IMG/VR virus record: IMGVR_UViG_3300025785_000036
Location: 1 to 41,514 of that record
Reading direction: 5' to 3' (one strand)
Source of the DNA: a virus
DNA: 41,514 nucleotides
The notes under the pieces are model-generated. The model searched no databases and had not been told where the DNA came from. It saw only the letters and a program-made list of their open reading frames with translations. The translations under genes were made by a program, and so were the position numbers. This document shows positions 2,688 to 22,987 of this stretch, piece after piece; within the stretch, counting starts at the first letter, position 1; the number at the start of each line of letters is the position of its first letter.

Positions 2688-3614
2688 TTATTTCCTCGTC
2701 AGGTCGAACACAGCACACCAGTCCTGAGCCGCGTTGGGTTGTTCGCTGATGCGTGTTTTCTGTGAGTGGGTGTAGCGCACATCCTGTTTGAAGTTCGGCA
2801 CGGAGAGTTTTAACGCGGCCACTTGTAGATGCAGTTTGATCGACCGTCCTCCCATCGTGTTCTCTATATCCTCGAACCGCCCTACGTATGTGCGCTTGTA
2901 GTCCTCCGGGTTGTAACGCTTGGTTGTGGATACGTACTTGCCATCGACCTTCTCTATCTTCACTACGGTGCGCCGAATGAACGGTTTGTGTTCGGCTATA
3001 TAATTGTCCAGCTCCGATAGCGTAGCGCGCTGTGCCTTTTCTTTGGGTTTGGCACGATGCAGAACTTTTCTTTCAAGCGTGCGGATACGGCGCATCATGC
3101 GCTCACGTTCCAGTTCCTCCTCTGTCTTTCTATTATGTGCCATGTGCTCGCCACGGATCATGCGCTCGCGGTACTGCTCGACCCACTCATCCATAGCACG
3201 GGCAACAAGGGCAACGTCATTCCGGTATCGCCTACGCATGCGCGCGGCGGTTTTCTTATACTCATGCTCGGGCGGGTTCAGTCGATCAGCACGTAGTTCT
3301 TCCTTCTTACTCAGGTCGTAAATGTGGCATTGGCATTGTGCTCCTTTGTAGGGAGTGCCCTTGTAGAACCCTGTCAGTTTTGAACAGATGAAGCTATCGG
3401 TGAGCCTGAGTGTTTCATATCCTCCACATTCGTAAAGCTCTTTGGCTACTTGGGCCTTGATGTAGAGGGTGTCGGTGTCGGGTTCGTAGCGCATACTGGC
3501 AGTTCGGTAGAACTCGCGTTCCTCGGGTGTAAGTTCTTTCTTTTCTGCACGAGCATTGCTATCCACACGGATAACGTCAACTGAATTGTTCATGAGATCG
3601 CGTAGCATACCCAC
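2688..3614 (-). CDS. Leftward phage protein with basic coiled-coil region, unknown function (308 aa)
   Basis: The start is a GTG at 3614, six nt after AGGAGG; a later in-frame ATG two codons on has worse spacing. The protein has a possible Cys/His cluster near residues 93-97 (CQCH, with C77 upstream), a highly charged helical region at about 125-205 rich in Arg/Glu (RKTEEELERERMMRRIR), and a Lys/Arg/Tyr-rich C-terminal third. The charge pattern suits nucleic-acid or protein binding, but I do not recognise a family. It is the first gene of the 3614-2179 operon, preceded by a long non-coding leader. Confidence 0.78.
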   Translation of the reverse strand: MGMLRDLMNNSVDVIRVDSNARAEKKELTPEEREFYRTASMRYEPDTDTLYIKAQVAKELYECGGYETLRLTDSFICSKLTGFYKGTPYKGAQCQCHIYDLSKKEELRADRLNPPEHEYKKTAARMRRRYRNDVALVARAMDEWVEQYRERMIRGEHMAHNRKTEEELERERMMRRIRTLERKVLHRAKPKEKAQRATLSELDNYIAEHKPFIRRTVVKIEKVDGKYVSTTKRYNPEDYKRTYVGRFEDIENTMGGRSIKLHLQVAALKLSVPNFKQDVRYTHSQKTRISEQPNAAQDWCAVFDLTRK

Positions 3615-3626
3615 TAAAAACCTCCT

Positions 3627-4031
3627 ATGTGGTGTTCAGCCCTTGCGGGGCGCGGGATTAAAAGGACGGACTAAATGTAACAGAAAAACGAGGAACCGAC
3701 AACTTTAATGGACGGGCTAGGTGTGACGGGGGATGAGCGGGTTCTTTAGTTTAGAAAAAGGTTTTATAAATAAAAAAGCACCAAGCTATAGATAGAGAGA
3801 TAGAACGGGAGGAGTAGACAGAGATAGACATAGCCGGGGAGATACTCGCTAAAGTTTTATATATTATTTTTTATAAAACTTATTATAGAGAGAGAAAGCC
3901 CGTTGCCTCCCGTTGCCTCTAAGGGCTGTGCATAAAAAGTCCTGTAGTGCCTACTTTCCGCGCTTCTAATTTTTATTCTTTACCCTCGCGTCTGGTGTGG
4001 GCTGCACGTAGCCTGCCATGCTTTTATCACC
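3627..4031 (-). other. Long non-coding leader with AT-rich and GATAGA-rich tracts
   Basis: About 400 nt with no convincing gene. A short GCCC-TTGCG-GGGC hairpin (3639-3651) lies before the ribosome site of the 3614 gene. A purine-rich tract with repeated GATAGA/GACAGA units spans roughly 3788-3832. A 10-bp inverted repeat AAGTTTTATA...TATAAAACTT (3852-3861 and 3872-3881) surrounds a pure A/T loop, followed by a TATAAT-like hexamer on the minus strand (3887-3882) with no good -35. The AT-rich inverted repeat beside an iteron-like purine tract could be a replication origin; promoter or processing signals are alternatives. A 17-codon frame (4019-3966) just after palindrome copy 5 has only a weak ribosome site. 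Confidence 0.4.
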
Positions 4032-13740: not shown

Positions 13741-14655
13741 ATGGCTGCTATTTCACGCGCGCAATTACTTAAAGAGCTGCTCCCCGGCTTGAACGCCCTG
13801 TTCGGTCTGGAATATGAGCGGTATGGCGAGGAATACAAGGAGCTTTTCGAGACCGAAAGCTCTGAGCGTTCCTTTGAAGAAGAACAGAAGCTCTCTGGCT
13901 TCGGTGCTGCCCCGGTTAAGGCGGAAGGTTCAGCGATTGCGTATGACAATGCGCAGGAAGCATGGAACACCCGCTACACCCACGAAACCATCGCTCTCGG
14001 CTTCTCCCTGACGGAAGAAGCAATCGAAGATAACCTGTACGACTCACTGTCTGCTCGTTATACCAAGGCGCTGGCTCGTGCTATGGCTTACACCAAGGAA
14101 GTCAAGGCGGCTAACATTCTGAATAACGGCTTCAACTCGAACTACAAAGGTGGTGACGGTCAGGCTCTGTTCTCAAATGCTCACCCGCTGGTTTATGGTT
14201 CAACCATTTCCAACATTCCGACGACTGCAGCGGACCTGAACGAAACCTCACTTGAAAATGCGGTAATTCAGATCTCTCTGTGGACCGACGAACGTGGCCT
14301 GCTCATCGCAGCTAAGCCGAAGAAACTGATCATCCCGTCTGCACTGCAGTTCGTGGCGACCCGTATCCTCGAAACTGAACTGCGTGTTGGTACCTCCGAC
14401 AACGACATCAACGCTCTGAAGAACAACGGCTCAATCCCGGGCGGCTGGACTGTCAACCACTGGTTGACCGACACCAATGCTTGGTTCTTGACCACCGACG
14501 TTCCGAATGGCCTCAAGCACTTTGTCCGTACCCCCTTGGCGACTTCAATGGACGCTGATTTTGATACGGGGAACGCTAGGTACAAGGCGAGAGAGCGCTA
14601 CAGCTTTGGATGGTCCGATTTCCTCGGAGTATTCGGAAGTCCCGGAAGTTCCTGA
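13741..14655 (+). CDS. Major capsid protein, Mu gpT-like (304 aa)
   Basis: The protein matches the pattern of Mu-like major head subunits (gpT family, HK97 fold): an N-terminal helix LLKELLPGLNALFGLEYERY, an acidic segment, ITLTEEAIEDN-type helix (FSLTEEAIEDNLYDSLSARY), a FSNAHPLVYGS motif, and a C-terminal GWTVNHWLTDTNAWFL. Length fits a capsid without a large delta domain. AGGAG lies 8-9 nt before ATG. The transcript ends at a strong terminator 20 nt downstream, which suits an abundantly made last gene of the head operon. Confidence 0.88.
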   Translation: MAAISRAQLLKELLPGLNALFGLEYERYGEEYKELFETESSERSFEEEQKLSGFGAAPVKAEGSAIAYDNAQEAWNTRYTHETIALGFSLTEEAIEDNLYDSLSARYTKALARAMAYTKEVKAANILNNGFNSNYKGGDGQALFSNAHPLVYGSTISNIPTTAADLNETSLENAVIQISLWTDERGLLIAAKPKKLIIPSALQFVATRILETELRVGTSDNDINALKNNGSIPGGWTVNHWLTDTNAWFLTTDVPNGLKHFVRTPLATSMDADFDTGNARYKARERYSFGWSDFLGVFGSPGSS

Positions 14656-14674
14656 TTTATCAGGGTTTATCGGG

Positions 14675-14703
14675 AGAAAAGGGCCTTCGGGCCCTTTTCT
14701 TTT
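14675..14703 (+). terminator. Rho-independent terminator after the capsid gene
   Basis: AGAAAAGGGCC-TTCG-GGCCCTTTTCTTTT: a GC stem extended by an A/U stem, UUCG loop and U-rich tail. It is nearly the same design as the terminator at 15605-15630. Confidence 0.92.
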
Positions 14704-14712
14704 GCCCGCATG

Positions 14713-14741
14713 TTGACACAGCGTTCCTTCAGTGGTTTAAT
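14713..14741 (+). promoter_or_regulatory. Sigma-70-like promoter before the GIY-YIG gene
   Basis: TTGACA (14713-14718), a 17-nt spacer and TTTAAT (14736-14741), with TGG just before the -10 (extended -10). It is directly downstream of the capsid terminator, so the endonuclease gene seems to be independently transcribed. Confidence 0.75.
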
Positions 14742-14764
14742 ATCTTTACCAACCCGGAGGGCGC

Positions 14765-15580
14765 ATGAAGAACGTAATTTACAAAATCCGAAACGTAGTC
14801 AACGACCACTACTACGTAGGCAGCACAGTCGACTCTCGCAAACGCTTTTGGGCGCATAGAAAAGCTCTTCGCTTAGGGAACCATGACTGCGTGCATTTGC
14901 AACGTGCATGGAACAAATATGGCGAGGACTGTTTTAAATTCGAAGTGCTAGAGACGCATAGCTCTAAAGACGAGTTGTACCCAGCGGAACAAAAATGGCT
15001 GGACGAGCATTTCGGTAAAGACTACTGCTACAACGTAGCTGCCCACGCCGACTCCCCTATGAGGGATGCGAGCCCAGAGATCCGGGCTAAATTAGCTGAA
15101 AAAACCAAAGCATGGCTTAAACGAGAGGGACACCCTCGGCAAGGCGTAGCACATACAGAAGAATCCCGCGCTCAGATGTCAGAGACGCGTAAAGGTAAAG
15201 CAGCAGGCGCAGACCACTACCGCTACGGTAAAACAGTTTCAGAGGAGACACGTAAAAAGATTGGCGATGCTCAACGTGGTAAACCTAAAGCGCCCGGGAG
15301 AACCATATCCGCTGAAGGCCGTGCCAAAATCCGTGCCGCAGCTGAGGCGGGGCACTACAGTCACTGGGAAGGTCGCACTCATTCGGAGGAGTCAAAGGAG
15401 AAGATGGGCCGCGCCGTCATAGCGACGGATCCTGCTGGTGTAGAGCATAGGTTTGCTACAATCACTCAGCTTCGAAAGGAGCTTGGGCTGACTCCACCCA
15501 CGGTGGATAGGGCTTTAAAATCTGGCAACGCCCTGACAAAAGGCAAAGCCGAGGGGTGGAGTTTTAGATATACTGACTGA
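14765..15580 (+). CDS. GIY-YIG homing endonuclease with NUMOD3 repeats (271 aa)
   Basis: The N-terminal nuclease has VIYKIRNVVNDHYYVGST (the GIY and YIG elements), R25-type residue in SRKRFWAHRK, and the catalytic Glu in YPAEQKWLD. Several NUMOD3 DNA-contact repeats follow (HTEESRAQMSETRKGK, VSEETRKKIGDAQRGK, HSEESKEKMG), and the C-terminal ~50 residues form a NUMOD1/IENR1-like helix-turn-helix (TITQLRKELGLTPPTVDRAL). GGAGG lies before the ATG. Such free-standing enzymes cut endonuclease-free relatives and spread the gene. It sits between two terminator-promoter pairs, so it does not disrupt a gene. No intron is apparent. Confidence 0.92.
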   Translation: MKNVIYKIRNVVNDHYYVGSTVDSRKRFWAHRKALRLGNHDCVHLQRAWNKYGEDCFKFEVLETHSSKDELYPAEQKWLDEHFGKDYCYNVAAHADSPMRDASPEIRAKLAEKTKAWLKREGHPRQGVAHTEESRAQMSETRKGKAAGADHYRYGKTVSEETRKKIGDAQRGKPKAPGRTISAEGRAKIRAAAEAGHYSHWEGRTHSEESKEKMGRAVIATDPAGVEHRFATITQLRKELGLTPPTVDRALKSGNALTKGKAEGWSFRYTD

Positions 15581-15604
15581 GGACTGGGAGATCCCGGTCG
15601 GGAC

Positions 15605-15630
15605 AAGGGGGCTTCGGCCCCCTTTTCTTT
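15605..15630 (+). terminator. Rho-independent terminator after the GIY-YIG gene
   Basis: AAGGGGGC-TTCG-GCCCCCTT followed by TTCTTTT. It resembles the capsid terminator in loop and tail, and is followed by another TTGACAC promoter element. Confidence 0.92.
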
Positions 15631-15634
15631 TGTC

Positions 15635-15663
15635 TTGACACTGAAAAATAAGTAAGCTACAAA
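15635..15663 (+). promoter_or_regulatory. Possible promoter for the next structural operon
   Basis: TTGACA (15635-15640) with TACAAA (15658-15663) at 17-nt spacing. The -35 is perfect and the -10 weak. About 90 nt of leader without a gene separates it from the ATG at 15752. Confidence 0.5.
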
Positions 15664-15751
15664 GGCTCAAATCTAGGGATTTTCTAATTGCCTGCTCGAC
15701 CGCCCTAGCGGTACTCGCACAAGACGACAGGCGCATGTGCATGAGGTTATC

Positions 15752-16249
15752 ATGGGATTCTCCACTTGGCTTGGCCCGATTCGCACGGGTACCGTAAAGG
15801 ACACCACCGGAACCACCGCTGGTACTGTCGCTAACTGCGGCGTCGTCAGTCTTTCTCAGAACTCTGTTGTGTCTCCTGCTACTACCGCTGGCACGACCAC
15901 GATCGGTTGGATTCCGGCAGGTTCTCAGATTCTCGGTATCGAACTCGACACCACCACGGCCTTCACCTTCACCGGAGGCACCACTCCAGCAGCCACCATT
16001 ACGGTGGGTGATGGGACCACGGCAAATAAGTTTGTCACCACGACCACTGTGACTTCTGCAGGTCGGGCTTCACTGGCCACCACTGGCTCATACGCCAACT
16101 GGGTAAGTATCGGTTCTGTCGATATTCCGGTCGTGGTCACGCTGGCCTTCACCGGCTCACCTTCTTCTGTCAATGCAGGTGCATTGAACCTCACGGTGCG
16201 TTACGCTCAGAAGAACAGCGATGGCACTGCAGCTCCAGCCTCTGCCTAA
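15752..16249 (+). CDS. Probable virion structural protein, Thr-rich beta (165 aa)
   Basis: I start it at ATG 15752 (MGFSTWLGPIRTG) with GAGG nine nt upstream; an earlier in-frame ATG at 15737 has no ribosome site. The protein is Thr/Ala/Gly/Val-rich with alternating beta strands (TTIGWIPAGSQILGIELDTT, VDIPVVVTLAFTG). Such proteins in aquatic phages are virion surface or head-decoration proteins. It is the first gene of the second late operon. No enzymatic motifs are present. Confidence 0.75.
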   Translation: MGFSTWLGPIRTGTVKDTTGTTAGTVANCGVVSLSQNSVVSPATTAGTTTIGWIPAGSQILGIELDTTTAFTFTGGTTPAATITVGDGTTANKFVTTTTVTSAGRASLATTGSYANWVSIGSVDIPVVVTLAFTGSPSSVNAGALNLTVRYAQKNSDGTAAPASA

Positions 16250-16262
16250 GAGACTGGTAGCG

Positions 16263-16496
16263 ATGGATGCGCAAAATATCATTAATATCACTGCAGCGGT
16301 CATCGGAGCAGTCATTGGTTGGTTTGTAAAAATCATGTGGGATTCTGTTAAAGAACTCCAGAAAGACGTGAAAGAAACCAACCAGTCTCTCCATGAGAAC
16401 TACGTCCGTAAAGATGATTATCGAATCGACATGGCCGAAATAAAGGGTATGTTTAACCGGATCATGGACAAGTTGGACAACAAGGTGGACAAATGA
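16263..16496 (+). CDS. Membrane-anchored coiled-coil protein (77 aa)
   Basis: From ATG 16263 the chain has an N-terminal hydrophobic segment (INITAAVIGAVIGWFVKIMW, residues 6-25), then a charged helix (VKELQKDVKETNQSLHEN) and a C-terminal helix. One membrane helix followed by coiled coil is typical of phage i-spanin, holin-associated or DUF-type membrane proteins. It sits away from the lysis cassette (27731-28961), so its role is uncertain. An earlier in-frame ATG at 16221 would overlap the upstream gene and adds a non-hydrophobic leader, so I reject it. Confidence 0.72.
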   Translation: MDAQNIINITAAVIGAVIGWFVKIMWDSVKELQKDVKETNQSLHENYVRKDDYRIDMAEIKGMFNRIMDKLDNKVDK

Positions 16497-16549
16497 CACT
16501 GCCGTCCCGCGGTATTTCTCCAATTCAGCGTAAAGCTAGAGGAAATAAA

Positions 16550-16834
16550 ATGGCTAAGAAATCAGGTATGCCTACTTTGGCAAAGAAAGAGTCTATGAAG
16601 GCTCGTGTAACCAAGCGCGCTCCCGCACTGAACGCTATGTCTTTGGGTGCGGCTAATGCTCCTATGCCTCCGGCAGCAGGTCTCCGTACCGCTGGCCCTA
16701 TGGGTATGAAGTCTGGCGGTTCTTGTGGCACCAAGAAGATGGCTTGCGGTGGCAAGGCGATGAAGGGCTACTATAAAGGTGGTTCTGTCGATGGCTGCAT
16801 CTCTAAGGGCCACACCAAAGGGAAGTTTGTCTGA
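16550..16834 (+). CDS. Small basic Gly/Lys-rich protein (94 aa)
   Basis: ATG 16550 follows AGAGGAAAT, a good ribosome site; an earlier ATG at 16493 merely overlaps the previous stop. The N-terminal half is Lys/Met/Pro/Ala-rich (MAKKSGMPTLAKKESMKARV), and the C-terminal half has MACGGKAMKGYYKGGSVDGC with four Cys overall. The YKGGSVDG element recalls GG-x-V motifs seen in several virion proteins of this window. It is probably a minor virion or head-tail junction component. Confidence 0.7.
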   Translation: MAKKSGMPTLAKKESMKARVTKRAPALNAMSLGAANAPMPPAAGLRTAGPMGMKSGGSCGTKKMACGGKAMKGYYKGGSVDGCISKGHTKGKFV

Positions 16835-17265
16835 TGGCTGGGGGCGGCGGGCAGGGAGTTGATTTATCTCAGCTTCAGCAGAGCTTATCGGGCGGTGCGA
16901 ATAGCCAGTCTGGCTATAACAACTTTGCCGCCCCCAACCAAAACTTCATGTCCTACCAAGGACAGGGTCAGCCGAACCAGCCACAGGGTATTACGCCCGG
17001 CACTCCGCCTCCGGCGTTTGGCGCGACTCCTCAAAATCAGAATTTTATGTCAGGTCCTGATGTGACAGGCAATATGCCCGGCGGCAACGAAGGTTTTGAT
17101 GGTAGCGGCAGTGATGGCGGCGTAGGTGGTCAGCCCGCCCCGATGCAGAGTCCTCTGCAGCAAGGCAACAAACCTCTGGGTATGAGCCAGTTTCAGCAGC
17201 CGCAAGGACTGCAGATTCAAGGAAACCCTACTTCACAAGTAGTGCAGAGGCCCCAGCAGAGGTAA
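16834..17265 (+). CDS. Low-complexity Gln/Gly/Pro-rich protein (143 aa)
   Basis: The ATG overlaps the preceding TGA (TGATGG). The protein is built of Gln, Gly, Asn and Pro with a repeated QNFMS element (NQNFMSYQG and NQNFMSGPD, about 32 residues apart). No folded domain is evident. Low-complexity virion proteins of this type are common in aquatic podovirus-like phages; function is unknown. Tight coupling on both sides suggests co-translation with the neighbours. Confidence 0.7.
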   Translation: MAGGGGQGVDLSQLQQSLSGGANSQSGYNNFAAPNQNFMSYQGQGQPNQPQGITPGTPPPAFGATPQNQNFMSGPDVTGNMPGGNEGFDGSGSDGGVGGQPAPMQSPLQQGNKPLGMSQFQQPQGLQIQGNPTSQVVQRPQQR

Positions 17266-17267
17266 GC

Positions 17268-17528
17268 ATGGCTAAGTCTCCCGCGTGGCAAAGAGCTGAA
17301 GGTAAAGACCCCAAGGGCGGTCTAAACGCCAAGGGTCGCGCCTCTGCCAAGAAGCAGGGCATGAACCTGAAACCCCCGGCCCCAAAGCCCAAGACAAAGG
17401 AAGACGCCGGAAGGAGAGCCTCCTTTTGCGCCCGAATGTCAGGTATGAAAAAGAAACTCACGAGCAGCAAGACTGCGAATGACCCAAATAGCCGCATCAA
17501 CAAATCGTTGAAGGCGTGGAACTGCTGA
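17268..17528 (+). CDS. Small basic protein, DUF6321-like (86 aa)
   Basis: AGAGGT precedes the ATG. The sequence SPAWQRAEGKDPKGGLNAKG, RASAKKQGMNLKPPAPKPK and RRASFCARMSGMKKKL follows a pattern I recall as DUF6321-type small phage proteins. The chain is strongly basic (Lys/Arg) with a Cys in FCARMSGMK. It may bind DNA or act in the virion; no experiment is known to me. Family name is from memory and not verified. Confidence 0.72.
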   Translation: MAKSPAWQRAEGKDPKGGLNAKGRASAKKQGMNLKPPAPKPKTKEDAGRRASFCARMSGMKKKLTSSKTANDPNSRINKSLKAWNC

Positions 17529-17538
17529 GGTAACGACA

Positions 17539-18063
17539 ATGACGATGCAATATGATGTAAAAGCCGCGCACATAAGTGTTTCTGGAATTATCCTAAGTGG
17601 GCGTGCGAGACTGAAGCAGTTTACATTTGCCGGTACGGGTGGTCAGAACGGTAGGCTCGTGGCTTTTGACTGCCTGTCAGCGCCAACCGCCGCTACTTAT
17701 GCTCAGTCAGGCACAAACACTGTTACGGTAACTAGCACCGCGCACGGGTTGGCTACGGGGGCGACAGTGGGTATTTCATACGCGTCTACTACAGGCGGTT
17801 CCGCTACCGACGGCAATTACACTATTACGGTGACGGGGGCTAACACCTTCACGATTACCGATCCGAATAGCAACACGCTCAGCGGATCACCCCCTGCTTG
17901 TCAGTATGTTTCAGGCAGCAATCGCTGGATCACTACCTATGAAACTTTGACAGGATCTACGGCTACCTCAAGTGTGAATGTTCCCGGTGAAGGACTTTTG
18001 GCCGCTAACGGCATCTACGTCTACATGCTGAACATCGGTTTCGTAACCATCCATTACGGTTAA
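17539..18063 (+). CDS. Probable virion structural protein with Ig-like beta module (174 aa)
   Basis: GAGGTAAC precedes the ATG. The chain is beta-rich, with a middle module GTNTVTVTSTAHGLATGATV ... GNYTITVTGANTFTI that matches the Ig-like/fibre-type repeats often seen in phage virion surface proteins. No enzyme motif is seen. It is the last gene before the relic of the adaptor gene start (18067). Confidence 0.75.
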   Translation: MTMQYDVKAAHISVSGIILSGRARLKQFTFAGTGGQNGRLVAFDCLSAPTAATYAQSGTNTVTVTSTAHGLATGATVGISYASTTGGSATDGNYTITVTGANTFTITDPNSNTLSGSPPACQYVSGSNRWITTYETLTGSTATSSVNVPGEGLLAANGIYVYMLNIGFVTIHYG

Positions 18064-18066
18064 GCC

Positions 18067-18129
18067 ATGACCACCTCCGGCGTCACAGATTGGAACCCGC
18101 AACTTGATGAGATCGTTGAGGAAGCCTAG
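18067..18129 (+). pseudogene. 20-codon relic of the adaptor gene's 5' end
   Basis: ATG-led frame reads MTTSGVTDWNPQLDEIVEEA then TAG. The intact gene at 18760 begins MATSGTANWNPQLDEIIEES, identical at 14 of 20 positions; the DNA matches at about 37 of 60 bases by hand count. It is therefore a truncated homologous start left on the near side of the inserted homing endonuclease. Its GAGGAAG also serves as ribosome site for the endonuclease ATG at 18132. Confidence 0.85.
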
Positions 18130-18131
18130 AT

Positions 18132-18770
18132 ATGAGAGCAATAAATCCAGAAACGACCAGATATGCGTATGTGCACTGTCGTCCTGATGGGTCTATTTTT
18201 TATGTAGGCAAGGGTGCTATGCGCCGAGCAAAAAATCTTAGGGAACGGAATGAGTACCATAAGCGGGTCGTAGCTAAGCACGGTAAGGAAAACATTTTTA
18301 TCGGAACCATAGAATGCTCATCTGATGCGATATCACTAGAGTTGGAACGGGGCATCATCAAGTGTCTCAAACGTTCTGGAGTTAAACTAACTAATTGCAC
18401 GGATGGTGGCGAGAAGGGCACAGTTTTAACACCGGAGACATTAGAGAAGTTGTCCATAGCGGCAAAAAAACGCGGCGTATCAGCAGCCTGCCGAACCGCT
18501 ACCGTAACCGCGAGAAAAGGAAAACCGCTACCAGAAGCGCACAGATTGAAAGTATCGCGGAGTATGCAAGGTAAAGTATTCTCTGAAGAGCATCGACGTA
18601 ATATCAGCGCTTCCGCTAAGAAAAGAGGCATGTCTCCACAAATAACAGCCGCAGCCCACGCTAAGACCAGAGGCAGGGTGCAATCTGAAGAGGAGCGCGC
18701 AATGCGGAGCGCAGCGCTGTTAGAATCATGGCGCAGGCGTAAAGCGGAGGCAACAAATAATGGCGACTAG
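18132..18770 (+). CDS. GIY-YIG homing endonuclease (212 aa)
   Basis: The N-terminal nuclease domain contains TRYAYVHCRPDGSIFYVGKG (GIY-YIG elements), Arg/Lys-rich helix (MRRAKNLRERNEYHKR) and an acidic ISLELERGIIKCLKR helix with the likely catalytic Glu. The C-terminal part has NUMOD3-like repeats (LPEAHRLKVSRSMQGK, FSEEHRRNISASAKKRG, QSEEERAMRSAALLE). It is a different subtype from the 14765 enzyme. The gene sits exactly between a relic and an intact copy of the next gene's start, and its last codons contain GGAGG that is the ribosome site of the downstream gene (11-nt overlap). Confidence 0.9.
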   Translation: MRAINPETTRYAYVHCRPDGSIFYVGKGAMRRAKNLRERNEYHKRVVAKHGKENIFIGTIECSSDAISLELERGIIKCLKRSGVKLTNCTDGGEKGTVLTPETLEKLSIAAKKRGVSAACRTATVTARKGKPLPEAHRLKVSRSMQGKVFSEEHRRNISASAKKRGMSPQITAAAHAKTRGRVQSEEERAMRSAALLESWRRRKAEATNNGD

Positions 18771-19464
18771 TGGAACAGCTAATTGGAACCCCCAGCTAGA
18801 TGAAATTATTGAAGAAAGTTATGAAAGAGTTGGGGTCGAAATCCGCACGGGTTACCAAGCTCGTACCGCGCGACGAAGTCTCAACTATCTCATAACCGAG
18901 CTTGCTAACCACGGGTTGAATCTTTGGACTTACGAAGAAGCGGACATCCCGCTCACCCAAGGACAGTACATTTACGATCTTCCAGAAGACTGCGTAGACC
19001 TTGTTGATCAAGTGATTCGACAGAATCCGGGTAGCCAATACAACCAGACCGATTTAGTTATCCCACGTATAGCCCTGCCGACTTATGACGCGATCCCAAA
19101 CAAGCTGTCGCAAGGACGCCCCGTACAGGTATGGGTAAACAGGCAGTCACCTATCCCGAAAATTTACTTGTGGCAAGTGCCCAATCAATCGGGCTACTCT
19201 TTTCATTATTGGTATCTGCGCCGCGTTCAAGACGCTGGGCAGTCAGGTGCTACAACGCAAGATGTACCTTTCCGTTTTTACGAAGCATTGACCGCGGGAC
19301 TTTCGTATCATTTGGGTAGAAAACAACCGGATTTGGATATGAATAGACTGCAGATGCTGAAAGCGTCTTATGATGAAGCATTGCAGTTGGCAATGGATGA
19401 GGACAGAGATAAAAGTCCTGTGAGATTTGTTCCGATGGCTGGGTACTTGGGTGGTGGCTGGTAA
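18760..19464 (+). CDS. Probable head-tail adaptor protein (234 aa)
   Basis: Helical N-terminal domain (IIEESYERVGVEIRTGYQ, ARRSLNYLITELANHGLNLW), then TLPLTQGQ-type strand ADIPLTQGQYIYDLPEDCVD, and a C-terminal helical region. This is the general layout of podovirus adaptors such as P22 gp4 and T7 gp11-like or SU10-type adaptors, which ring the portal and join the tail. The intact start follows the endonuclease and the Shine-Dalgarno lies inside the endonuclease gene. A diverged relic of this start remains at 18067. Confidence 0.75.
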   Translation: MATSGTANWNPQLDEIIEESYERVGVEIRTGYQARTARRSLNYLITELANHGLNLWTYEEADIPLTQGQYIYDLPEDCVDLVDQVIRQNPGSQYNQTDLVIPRIALPTYDAIPNKLSQGRPVQVWVNRQSPIPKIYLWQVPNQSGYSFHYWYLRRVQDAGQSGATTQDVPFRFYEALTAGLSYHLGRKQPDLDMNRLQMLKASYDEALQLAMDEDRDKSPVRFVPMAGYLGGGW

Positions 19465-20191: not shown

Positions 20192-20854
20192 ATGTCATAC
20201 GACATTACGACATACGCGGGGCTGGTAGAGGCAATACAAGCCTTTACTGAAGTTGATGAGGCGAGCTTCATCAGCAACATTCCTAACTTTGTTCAGGATG
20301 TAGAGCGGCTGGTTAATAACACCGTTGAGCTCCCCGCGTTTCGTAGGAATGTCACAGGCACAGCCACAGCTTCTTTTCCGTATCTGACGCTTCCGAGCGA
20401 TTTTCTGTCCACGTTCTCCGTGGCAGTGATGAACTCTGGAGACACACAGGCGGACGGCTATCGGTACATGCTGAACAAGGATGTGAACTACATCCGCGAG
20501 TTCTTTCCCTTCCCCGGTGTTACCGGAACGCCGCAGTACTACGCACTGTTCGACAACAACACGTACATTCTTGGGCCTACGCCTGATGTGAACTACGACA
20601 TCGAACTGCACTATTTTGCGTATCCGACTTCCATTGTGACCGCAGGGACTACGTGGTTGAGCACCAACTTCCCGAACGTATTGCTGTACGGCGCTCTGGT
20701 TGAGAGTTATATATTTTTGAAGGGCGAGGCTGATTTGATCCAAGCGTATCAGACCAAGTACGATCAGGCTATGGCTCTGTTGAAGCAGCTCGGTGACGGT
20801 AAGGATCGTCAGGATGAATACAGGACCGTGCAGGTCAGGGACAAGGTTGTATGA
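20192..20854 (+). CDS. Phage adaptor/head-tail connector protein (220 aa)
   Basis: The sequence TYAGLVEAIQAFTEVDEASF, FVQDVERLVNNTVELPAFRR, YLTLPSDFLSTFSV and YFAYPTSIV, with a C-terminal helix (KYDQAMALLKQLG), matches the adaptor family found in SU10-like and other podoviruses. It would bind the portal below the head or the nozzle. This is the second adaptor-like gene in the window, so the two may build successive rings. The start has GGGCTAAAC upstream, a weak ribosome site. Confidence 0.82.
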   Translation: MSYDITTYAGLVEAIQAFTEVDEASFISNIPNFVQDVERLVNNTVELPAFRRNVTGTATASFPYLTLPSDFLSTFSVAVMNSGDTQADGYRYMLNKDVNYIREFFPFPGVTGTPQYYALFDNNTYILGPTPDVNYDIELHYFAYPTSIVTAGTTWLSTNFPNVLLYGALVESYIFLKGEADLIQAYQTKYDQAMALLKQLGDGKDRQDEYRTVQVRDKVV

Positions 20855-21936: not shown

Positions 21937-21973
21937 GAAGTGCTTCACCAACAATCTGTTAGGGAGATTGAAG

Positions 21974-22486
21974 ATGCGGAACGATCATATCATTGTTGAA
22001 AATGCCCAGCAATTATGGGACTACGATCCAGAGACAGGCAGAATTTACTGGAAAGAGCCGAAGTGTAATGGTGCTATAAAGGCGGGACAGGAAGCGGGGT
22101 CTACAACGACATCGGGTTATAGAGAGGTTAGAGTAGGCAGAAAGCCCGTTTTGGTCCACAGGGTAATCTGGTTTTTGTATTATGGTGAACTTCCTAGATG
22201 TCAGCTAGACCACATAAACAGAGATCGGGCGGACAACAGAGTTTGCAATTTACGGATAGCGTATAACAACGCTAGCGATAACAACCAAAATAGGGCGGTA
22301 GGAAAAAACAACACCTCTGGGTACAAAGGTGTTATATGGAACCCTAAGAACAGTAGATGGATAGTCCGACTTAAACATAAAGGGCGAAGCATGTATTTTG
22401 GGTCTTACCTCGATATCAAAGATGCCATAGCTGCTAGGAAAAGGGCAGAAGCAGAGCATTTTACTTTTATACATTCTCAGGAATAG
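21974..22486 (+). CDS. HNH homing endonuclease with AP2-type DNA-binding domain (170 aa)
   Basis: The nuclease has VHRVIWFLYYGELPRCQLDH, with INRDRADNRVCNLR completing the D-H...N...N core of HNH_3-type enzymes. The C-terminal AP2 domain reads SGYKGVIWNPKNSRWIVRLK then KGRSMYFGSYLDIKDAI. It uses ATG 21974 with GGGAG seven nt upstream; a TTG two codons earlier lies too close to that ribosome site. It is a free-standing mobile endonuclease between the 21284 structural gene and the fibre gene at 22490. Confidence 0.92.
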   Translation: MRNDHIIVENAQQLWDYDPETGRIYWKEPKCNGAIKAGQEAGSTTTSGYREVRVGRKPVLVHRVIWFLYYGELPRCQLDHINRDRADNRVCNLRIAYNNASDNNQNRAVGKNNTSGYKGVIWNPKNSRWIVRLKHKGRSMYFGSYLDIKDAIAARKRAEAEHFTFIHSQE

Positions 22487-22489
22487 GCC

Positions 22490-22987
22490 ATGGCTTTCGT
22501 CCTTGCTGACCGTGTGCAGGAAAGTTCGACAACAGCGGGTACGGGAACACTTACCCTGTCGGGCGCGGTCACGGGGTACAAAACCTTCAGCACCGGAATC
22601 GGTAACGGGAACACCACCTATTACACGATCTTCGATTCCACTGCGAATGTCTGGGAAGTAGGACTCGGCACTGTCGGCGCCGGGACGCTATCGCGGGATA
22701 CGGTCCTCTCCAATTCCTCCAATACGACCGCGCTGATTAGCTTCGCTGGTAACACAATCAATGTCTGGTGTGACTATCCTGCTACGCGCTCTGTCATTCA
22801 GGATGCAAGTCTTAACGGTACGGCTCCGCAGATCCGGGCTTCTAATGGCCTGTTGGTGACCGCTCAGACGGTCACGGCGAACTACACAATCGCATCAACG
22901 GATAACGCCATCTCTCCCGGCCCCATCGCGGTCGCTTCGGGGATTACGGTCACGGTCAGTTCAGGCTCAGTTTGGGTGGTGGTATGA
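22490..22987 (+). CDS. Probable tail-fibre base/virion protein (165 aa)
   Basis: The chain begins MAFVLADRVQESSTTAGTGT and includes GAVTGYKTFSTGIGNGNTTY and NTINVWCDYPATRS, a widely shared phage tail-protein pattern (residue order L-A-D-R-V-x-E then Gly/Thr strands). It is beta-rich. It starts the fibre cluster and overlaps the next gene by ATGA. Not an enzyme by any motif visible here. Confidence 0.82.
   Translation: MAFVLADRVQESSTTAGTGTLTLSGAVTGYKTFSTGIGNGNTTYYTIFDSTANVWEVGLGTVGAGTLSRDTVLSNSSNTTALISFAGNTINVWCDYPATRSVIQDASLNGTAPQIRASNGLLVTAQTVTANYTIASTDNAISPGPIAVASGITVTVSSGSVWVVV

Follow-up and report, generated by a model that had tools for sequence, protein, structure and literature searches.

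Synthetic homing gene drives of the recoded-rescue type, engineered in insects, cut an essential gene and carry a recoded, resistant copy of the part that they cut. The free-standing endonucleases SegF and SegG of phage T4 are encoded upstream of the genes that they target, and some genes of the seg and mob types contain promoters of downstream genes, which favours their retention (PMC2988022). One-sided illegitimate repair is also documented for T4 homing (PMC2988022). The same source cites work from 1999 on a laboratory intron system in which, according to that account, homology on one side suffices, the other junction being formed at a microhomology after resection. It also cites MobE of phage Aeh1 (Friedrich et al. 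2007), described there as a case of genes-in-pieces, in which the function of the ribonucleotide reductase is kept. In fungal mitochondria, mobile endonuclease ORFs replace the 3' ends of genes (atp6 of Allomyces; atp6, atp9, cox2 and nad3 of Glomus sp.), and for atp6 of Glomus the identity of the native part is 91% to the relative and 63.5% to the duplicate (PMC3630166).

Here we describe a phage locus where a tail/portal adaptor gene has probably been invaded at its start by a free-standing GIY-YIG homing endonuclease that carries along a diverged version of the gene's first 20–39 codons or so.

Structure of the locus

The window, i.e. the whole 41,514-nt stretch of DNA analysed, comes from an IMG/VR virus record. 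The locus comprises the following features.

17539–18063, + strand: upstream gene, in a region with 92–95% DNA identity to the endonuclease-free locus L047, up to the adaptor start
18067–18129, + strand: relic, apparently resident adaptor codons 1–20 plus TA, closed by TAG; codon 20 is GCC (Ala)
18118–18121, + strand: GAGG inside the relic, candidate ribosome site of the endonuclease
18132–18770, + strand: predicted GIY-YIG homing endonuclease gene, 212 aa, PHROG 314
18746–18750, + strand: GGAGG inside the endonuclease gene, candidate ribosome site serving the displaced adaptor gene
18760–18876, + strand: diverged, probably imported adaptor start (about codons 1–39), with 34/114 differences from L008
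18768–18770, + strand: endonuclease stop TAG in adaptor codons 3–4 (ACTAGT); L041 and L042 have the same 11-nt overlap
18817–18819, + strand: codon 20, AGT (Ser), proposed cleavage-resistance substitution
18877–19464, + strand: apparently resident body of the adaptor gene (SU10_adaptor family), about 88% identical to L008 in DNA

The relic, read directly from the window sequence, is MTTSGVTDWNPQLDEIVEEA followed by TAG, and the intact adaptor gene opens with MATSGTANWNPQLDEIIEESYER and encodes a product of 234 aa matching Pfam SU10_adaptor. The two starts are identical at 39/62 nt (63%), which agrees with the homology of about 62% in DNA given in the preliminary description. That description had also placed a GIY-YIG gene between the two copies, and an intact ORF of 212 aa indeed lies there. 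A profile of the adaptor N-terminus matched just two places on both strands of the 41.5-kb window, the relic (score 58.9) and the intact start; the sole chance match followed by a full start, in 5.2 Mb of related loci, scored 32.0.

The endonuclease and adaptor genes overlap by 11 nt, so that the endonuclease stop falls inside the adaptor coding sequence. The candidate ribosome sites are located as previously proposed: that of the adaptor gene, within the endonuclease gene, lies 9 nt 5' of the adaptor ATG, and that of the endonuclease, within the relic, lies 10 nt 5' of its ATG. The same locus was found in six other IMG/VR contigs, which excludes an assembly artefact.

Other genes of these types occur in the window. 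Another SU10_adaptor match is present at 20192–20854. A second GIY-YIG endonuclease gene with NUMOD3 motifs (14765–15580) follows the major capsid gene, and no relic of a neighbouring gene start was seen upstream of it. An HNH_3 endonuclease gene with a TTG start (21968–22486) ends 3 nt ahead of the gene at 22490, and no relic was seen there either.

The endonuclease

The 212-aa ORF matched PHROG 314 "homing endonuclease" (E 7.7e-15); the Pfam GIY-YIG model gave no match to it, and NUMOD3 was present in 16/22 of its relatives. Its predicted structural model had a mean pLDDT of 76, with about 90 over the first 80 residues. The modelled N-terminal domain resembled the catalytic domain of I-TevI (Z 7.8, 2.4 Å over 79 residues), and the nine top structure matches were all GIY-YIG-fold enzymes; Foldseek alone returned weak matches. 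The residues at the expected catalytic positions (Y13, Y24-V25-G26, R32, E72 and N88) were invariant in the 22 relatives. The product is thus predicted to have a GIY-YIG fold with conserved catalytic residues, and it appears to be related to annotated phage homing endonucleases. The dN/dS values between pairs of relatives (0.06–0.18) indicate that the gene is maintained. A search of bacterial genomes for relatives yielded two weak ones only, and solved structures sought by the endonuclease sequence gave none.

The endonuclease family at the adaptor start

In 20 non-redundant loci, members of the endonuclease family were found precisely where the adaptor gene begins, directly upstream of it and either overlapping it or within a few nucleotides. 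A wider search added 28 core-family loci (L124–L151), all directly upstream of an adaptor gene and mostly with a 4-nt ATGA overlap. Isolates carrying the cassette were sought and none was found. Since it lies outside an intron or intein and adjoins its presumed target gene, the endonuclease appears to be free-standing and seg-like. Where a carrier had a comparable endonuclease-free relative, the upstream homology often extended to the endonuclease ATG, placed where the relative has its adaptor ATG, and this was seen in many lineages.

Two carriers, L041 and L042, encode at this position an endonuclease 71–72% identical to that of the window. In both it forms an in-frame fusion with adaptor codons 1–11 and overlaps the restored adaptor start as in the window. 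Their genes (1395–2240 and 2986–3831, respectively) encode about 65 extra C-terminal residues that are absent from the window protein. In L150, nine codons of an adaptor start form the beginning of the endonuclease. Relics that are 20, 11 and 9 codons long indicate an interruption of the adaptor gene, and relics of at least nine codons occur in just three lineages. The two short relics score no better than one chance match, the free 20-codon relic was seen in the window genotype alone, and most loci are without a long relic. An additional relic in L367 was rejected as a chance match within another gene.

These observations bear on another explanation, namely that the locus results from ordinary intergenic homing with co-conversion, as for T4 SegF/SegG, the relic being incidental debris of a later rearrangement. 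The T4 seg genes are likewise directly upstream of their targets, some with signals of the downstream gene (PMC2988022), and the scarcity of long relics among our loci would also be expected. This explanation is nevertheless unlikely, because the endonuclease starts at the very position of the adaptor's ATG, the relics of three different lengths show the gene itself to be interrupted, and the upstream genes vary between carriers, so that homology on the left is often missing.

A family member with 39% identity precedes the gene that follows the adaptor gene in L152–L155 and L159 (at about 2992–3627; 961–1596 in L154), which indicates that the family has also reached the start of a second gene.

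Origin of the relic, the intact start and the adaptor body

The endonuclease-free phage with the adaptor body closest to that of the window is L008. The two differ at 34/114 nt in codons 2–39 and at 67/573 nt beyond (p=4e-6), i.e. DNA identity is 70% over the first 39 or so codons of the intact gene and 88% in the body, whereas the proteins are about 90% or more identical almost throughout. Among 201 adaptors the relic is also nearest to L008 (51/62 nt), and its nucleotides 25–62 match L008 at 35/38 positions vs 28/38 for the window's own intact start. The first 24 nt of the relic match L047 at 21/24, and the upstream region of L047 is likewise the nearest to that of the window. This pattern suggests that the upstream gene, the relic and the adaptor body are resident and the intact start is foreign; relic and body evidently derive from one lineage and the intact start from another. 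As in the ORFs that replace gene ends, a native part of the gene thus appears to have been kept as a relic close to an endonuclease-free relative. The donor of the intact start was not found, the nearest match having only 77% DNA identity, which indicates that the donor is not among the phages sampled. A tree of the adaptor 5' part was dropped as proof of the donor, since this segment is too short and support at key nodes was 30–53%.

All endonuclease-free relatives examined (L008–L011, L047–L049 and others) had a single start; both copies were looked for in them and not found. An independently conserved short gene, as which the relic might also be regarded, was rejected, the relic being unseen in other loci.

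L047 is 92–95% identical to the window over 14602–18099 and belongs to another adaptor lineage from the adaptor start on. Such a switch right at the adaptor start shows that recombination has a boundary here even where there is no endonuclease.

Exchange of the endonuclease and gene start as a block

The carriers L137 and L139 are 95–97% identical in the flanks, 83–84% in the endonuclease, 67% in adaptor codons 1–20, 83% in codons 21–26 and 99% in codons 27–57. L133, with the endonuclease, and L207, without it, have 21/102 differing nucleotides in the start vs 6/564 in the body (p=1.6e-13). The filled/empty pair L133/L207 and the exchanged block of L137/L139 fit a present/absent polymorphism with co-converted flanks. 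Nine carriers have a free relative whose body is at least 80% identical, and in 8/9 the identity of the first 20 codons falls to 54–72%. The median drop at the start was 0.23 in carrier–free vs 0.01 in free–free pairs (p=4e-4), the loci in the statistical tests being partly dependent phylogenetically. With body similarity held constant, endonuclease similarity predicted start similarity (partial r 0.46, permutation p<0.001). When all pairs of carriers were taken together, no simple excess in the similarity of their starts was found; carrier starts diverge both from free starts and from one another, so that only the partial correlation and the pair profiles carry the argument. The pairs L124/L251 and L132/L113 had no diverged start, and L251 has an HNH endonuclease there instead. 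On these comparisons, the endonuclease and the first 20–35 or so adaptor codons evidently differ as one block between otherwise near-identical phages.

Such blocks are difficult to reconcile with a local duplication at endonuclease insertion, followed by rapid change of the intact copy, as selection favoured a new translation start or acted against cutting, with nothing imported. That the protein sequence is largely conserved in spite of differences at third positions, and that the changed segment is short and adjoins the new ribosome site, could be explained in this way. However, the start and not the body has diverged between L133 and L207, the endonuclease of L137 and L139 diverges together with the start inside conserved flanks, and the DNA matches between L042 and the window consist of the endonuclease and the restored start only (98 bp, 77.6%, 3e-16), with none in the rest of the adaptor gene. 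Since all three patterns point to block exchange, we consider a local duplication quite improbable. The relic's TAG 2 nt before the endonuclease ATG and the GAGG inside it might suggest that the relic works as a leader peptide, retained because it couples translation to that of the endonuclease. This is highly improbable, given that the free peptide is absent from all other carriers and that the relic reads as the start of an L008-like gene; coupling may be a by-product.

The preliminary description had held that the endonuclease arrived with a diverged gene start from another phage and restored the gene. The foreign start and, most strongly, the block exchange in other phages with this endonuclease family agree with this, as does the comparison of the adaptor 5' and 3' parts that it had suggested, in which relic and body are nearest to L008 and the intact start is not. 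The left junction, in contrast, looks like end joining near a presumed cleavage site rather than arrival with the relic.

Codon 20 and the candidate cleavage site

Of the adaptors with the endonuclease, 13/20 have AGT (Ser) as codon 20, vs 2/128 of the free ones, and 125/128 free adaptors have Ala there (Fisher 5e-12), the strongest association among all codons. Seven of the 20 endonuclease-bearing adaptors keep Ala20; Cys17, noticed afterwards, accounts for five more carriers. Four free adaptors have Ser20 or Cys17, and two of these have an unrelated HNH endonuclease at the same place. When new loci were picked by DNA pattern alone, an endonuclease was directly upstream of 7/25 AGT20 vs 0/49 Ala20 adaptors (p=2.7e-4). 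A PHROG scan of upstream ORFs detected an endonuclease in 14/30 AGT20 vs at most 2/70 Ala20 adaptors, about half of the AGT20 adaptors being without a recognised endonuclease upstream.

In the window, the relic ends right after codon 20 (Ala) and the intact copy has Ser20. The codon 20 association and the position of the relic end lead us to infer that endonuclease-free adaptors are cleaved near codons 17–21, and the restored start appears to bear a resistance substitution at codon 20. Ser20 could also simply be inherited with the cassette, which would still show co-transfer, not resistance. Both the candidate cut site (codons 17–21) and the candidate resistance codon (Ala20 to Ser20) were derived from sequence alone.

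In L251, L264, L293, L228, L269, L280, L289 and L291 this 5' edge of the adaptor gene is taken up by HNH endonucleases or by another GIY-YIG/NUMOD3 type, and the adaptor mostly has Ser20.

Proposed mechanism and comparison with known systems

We propose that homing with import of a gene start proceeds in four steps. The enzyme would cut an endonuclease-free adaptor gene near codons 17–21. The right broken end would then be repaired from the donor phage, with copying leftwards through the donor adaptor start and the endonuclease, as the block footprints suggest. The left end, for which the donor offers no homology, would be joined illegitimately, leaving in the window a 20-codon relic whose end may mark the break. 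Finally, the adaptor would be expressed from the predicted ribosome site inside the endonuclease gene. A microhomology (TATGAG) at the left junction was suggestive by eye and was set aside, since four extra bases (TAGA) prevent a clean case. The copied start would preserve the protein while its DNA differs, codon 20 frequently being AGT (Ser), and may for this reason resist re-cutting and recombine poorly with the old start. As the endonuclease would use the expression site of the old gene and give the adaptor a new ribosome site, its loss would be costly.

Like SegF/SegG (PMC2988022), the window endonuclease is a free-standing GIY-YIG enzyme encoded directly upstream of its presumed target, with candidate expression signals of the target and apparent co-conversion of flanking DNA. 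It differs in its location at the target's own start codon, in the relic seen in some lineages and in the replacement coding start and ribosome site; cleavage is here predicted from sequence comparison. With the fungal mitochondrial ORFs (PMC3630166) it shares the location in an essential gene, a seemingly foreign, mostly synonymously diverged copy of the severed part, a native part (here the relic) and similar identity values. Those ORFs are mitochondrial, act on 3' ends and are mostly LAGLIDADG enzymes, whereas the cassette concerns a phage structural gene at its 5' end and comes with a new start codon and ribosome site. The cassette would thus work like the fungal ORFs without being one of them. 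Homology on one side only recalls the laboratory intron system as reported in PMC2988022, and would here apply to the natural spread of an intronless endonuclease. According to the same source, an essential phage gene also stays functional when Aeh1 MobE interrupts it; the Aeh1 gene stays as two working parts, whereas here the lost part appears to be replaced. We found no phage case with a replaced 5' gene end in the open-access full-text literature. Within that literature, the cassette would be a new 5' mirror of the fungal 3'-end replacers and a new variant of the seg-type free-standing homing endonucleases.

More tentatively, the adaptor start might be a hot spot common to unrelated endonucleases (the GIY-YIG family of the window, the other GIY-YIG/NUMOD3 type and HNH_3 types). 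These would have converged on one cut site and one solution: "home-and-rescue" cassettes with a resistant, synonymously diverged start, which enter phages without shared upstream homology by one-sided repair. This is possible, though we would not yet rely on it.

Like synthetic recoded-rescue drives, the cassette would bring a recoded and resistant version of the part that is cut, and it may be regarded as a natural phage counterpart of these engineered elements. It illustrates a way for selfish endonucleases to enter a structural gene at its coding start and yet leave that gene intact. It also suggests why homing genes can occupy gene starts exactly, how they may enter genomes without common upstream sequence and why phage gene starts can be mosaic, and it offers the cut site and the resistance codon in testable form.
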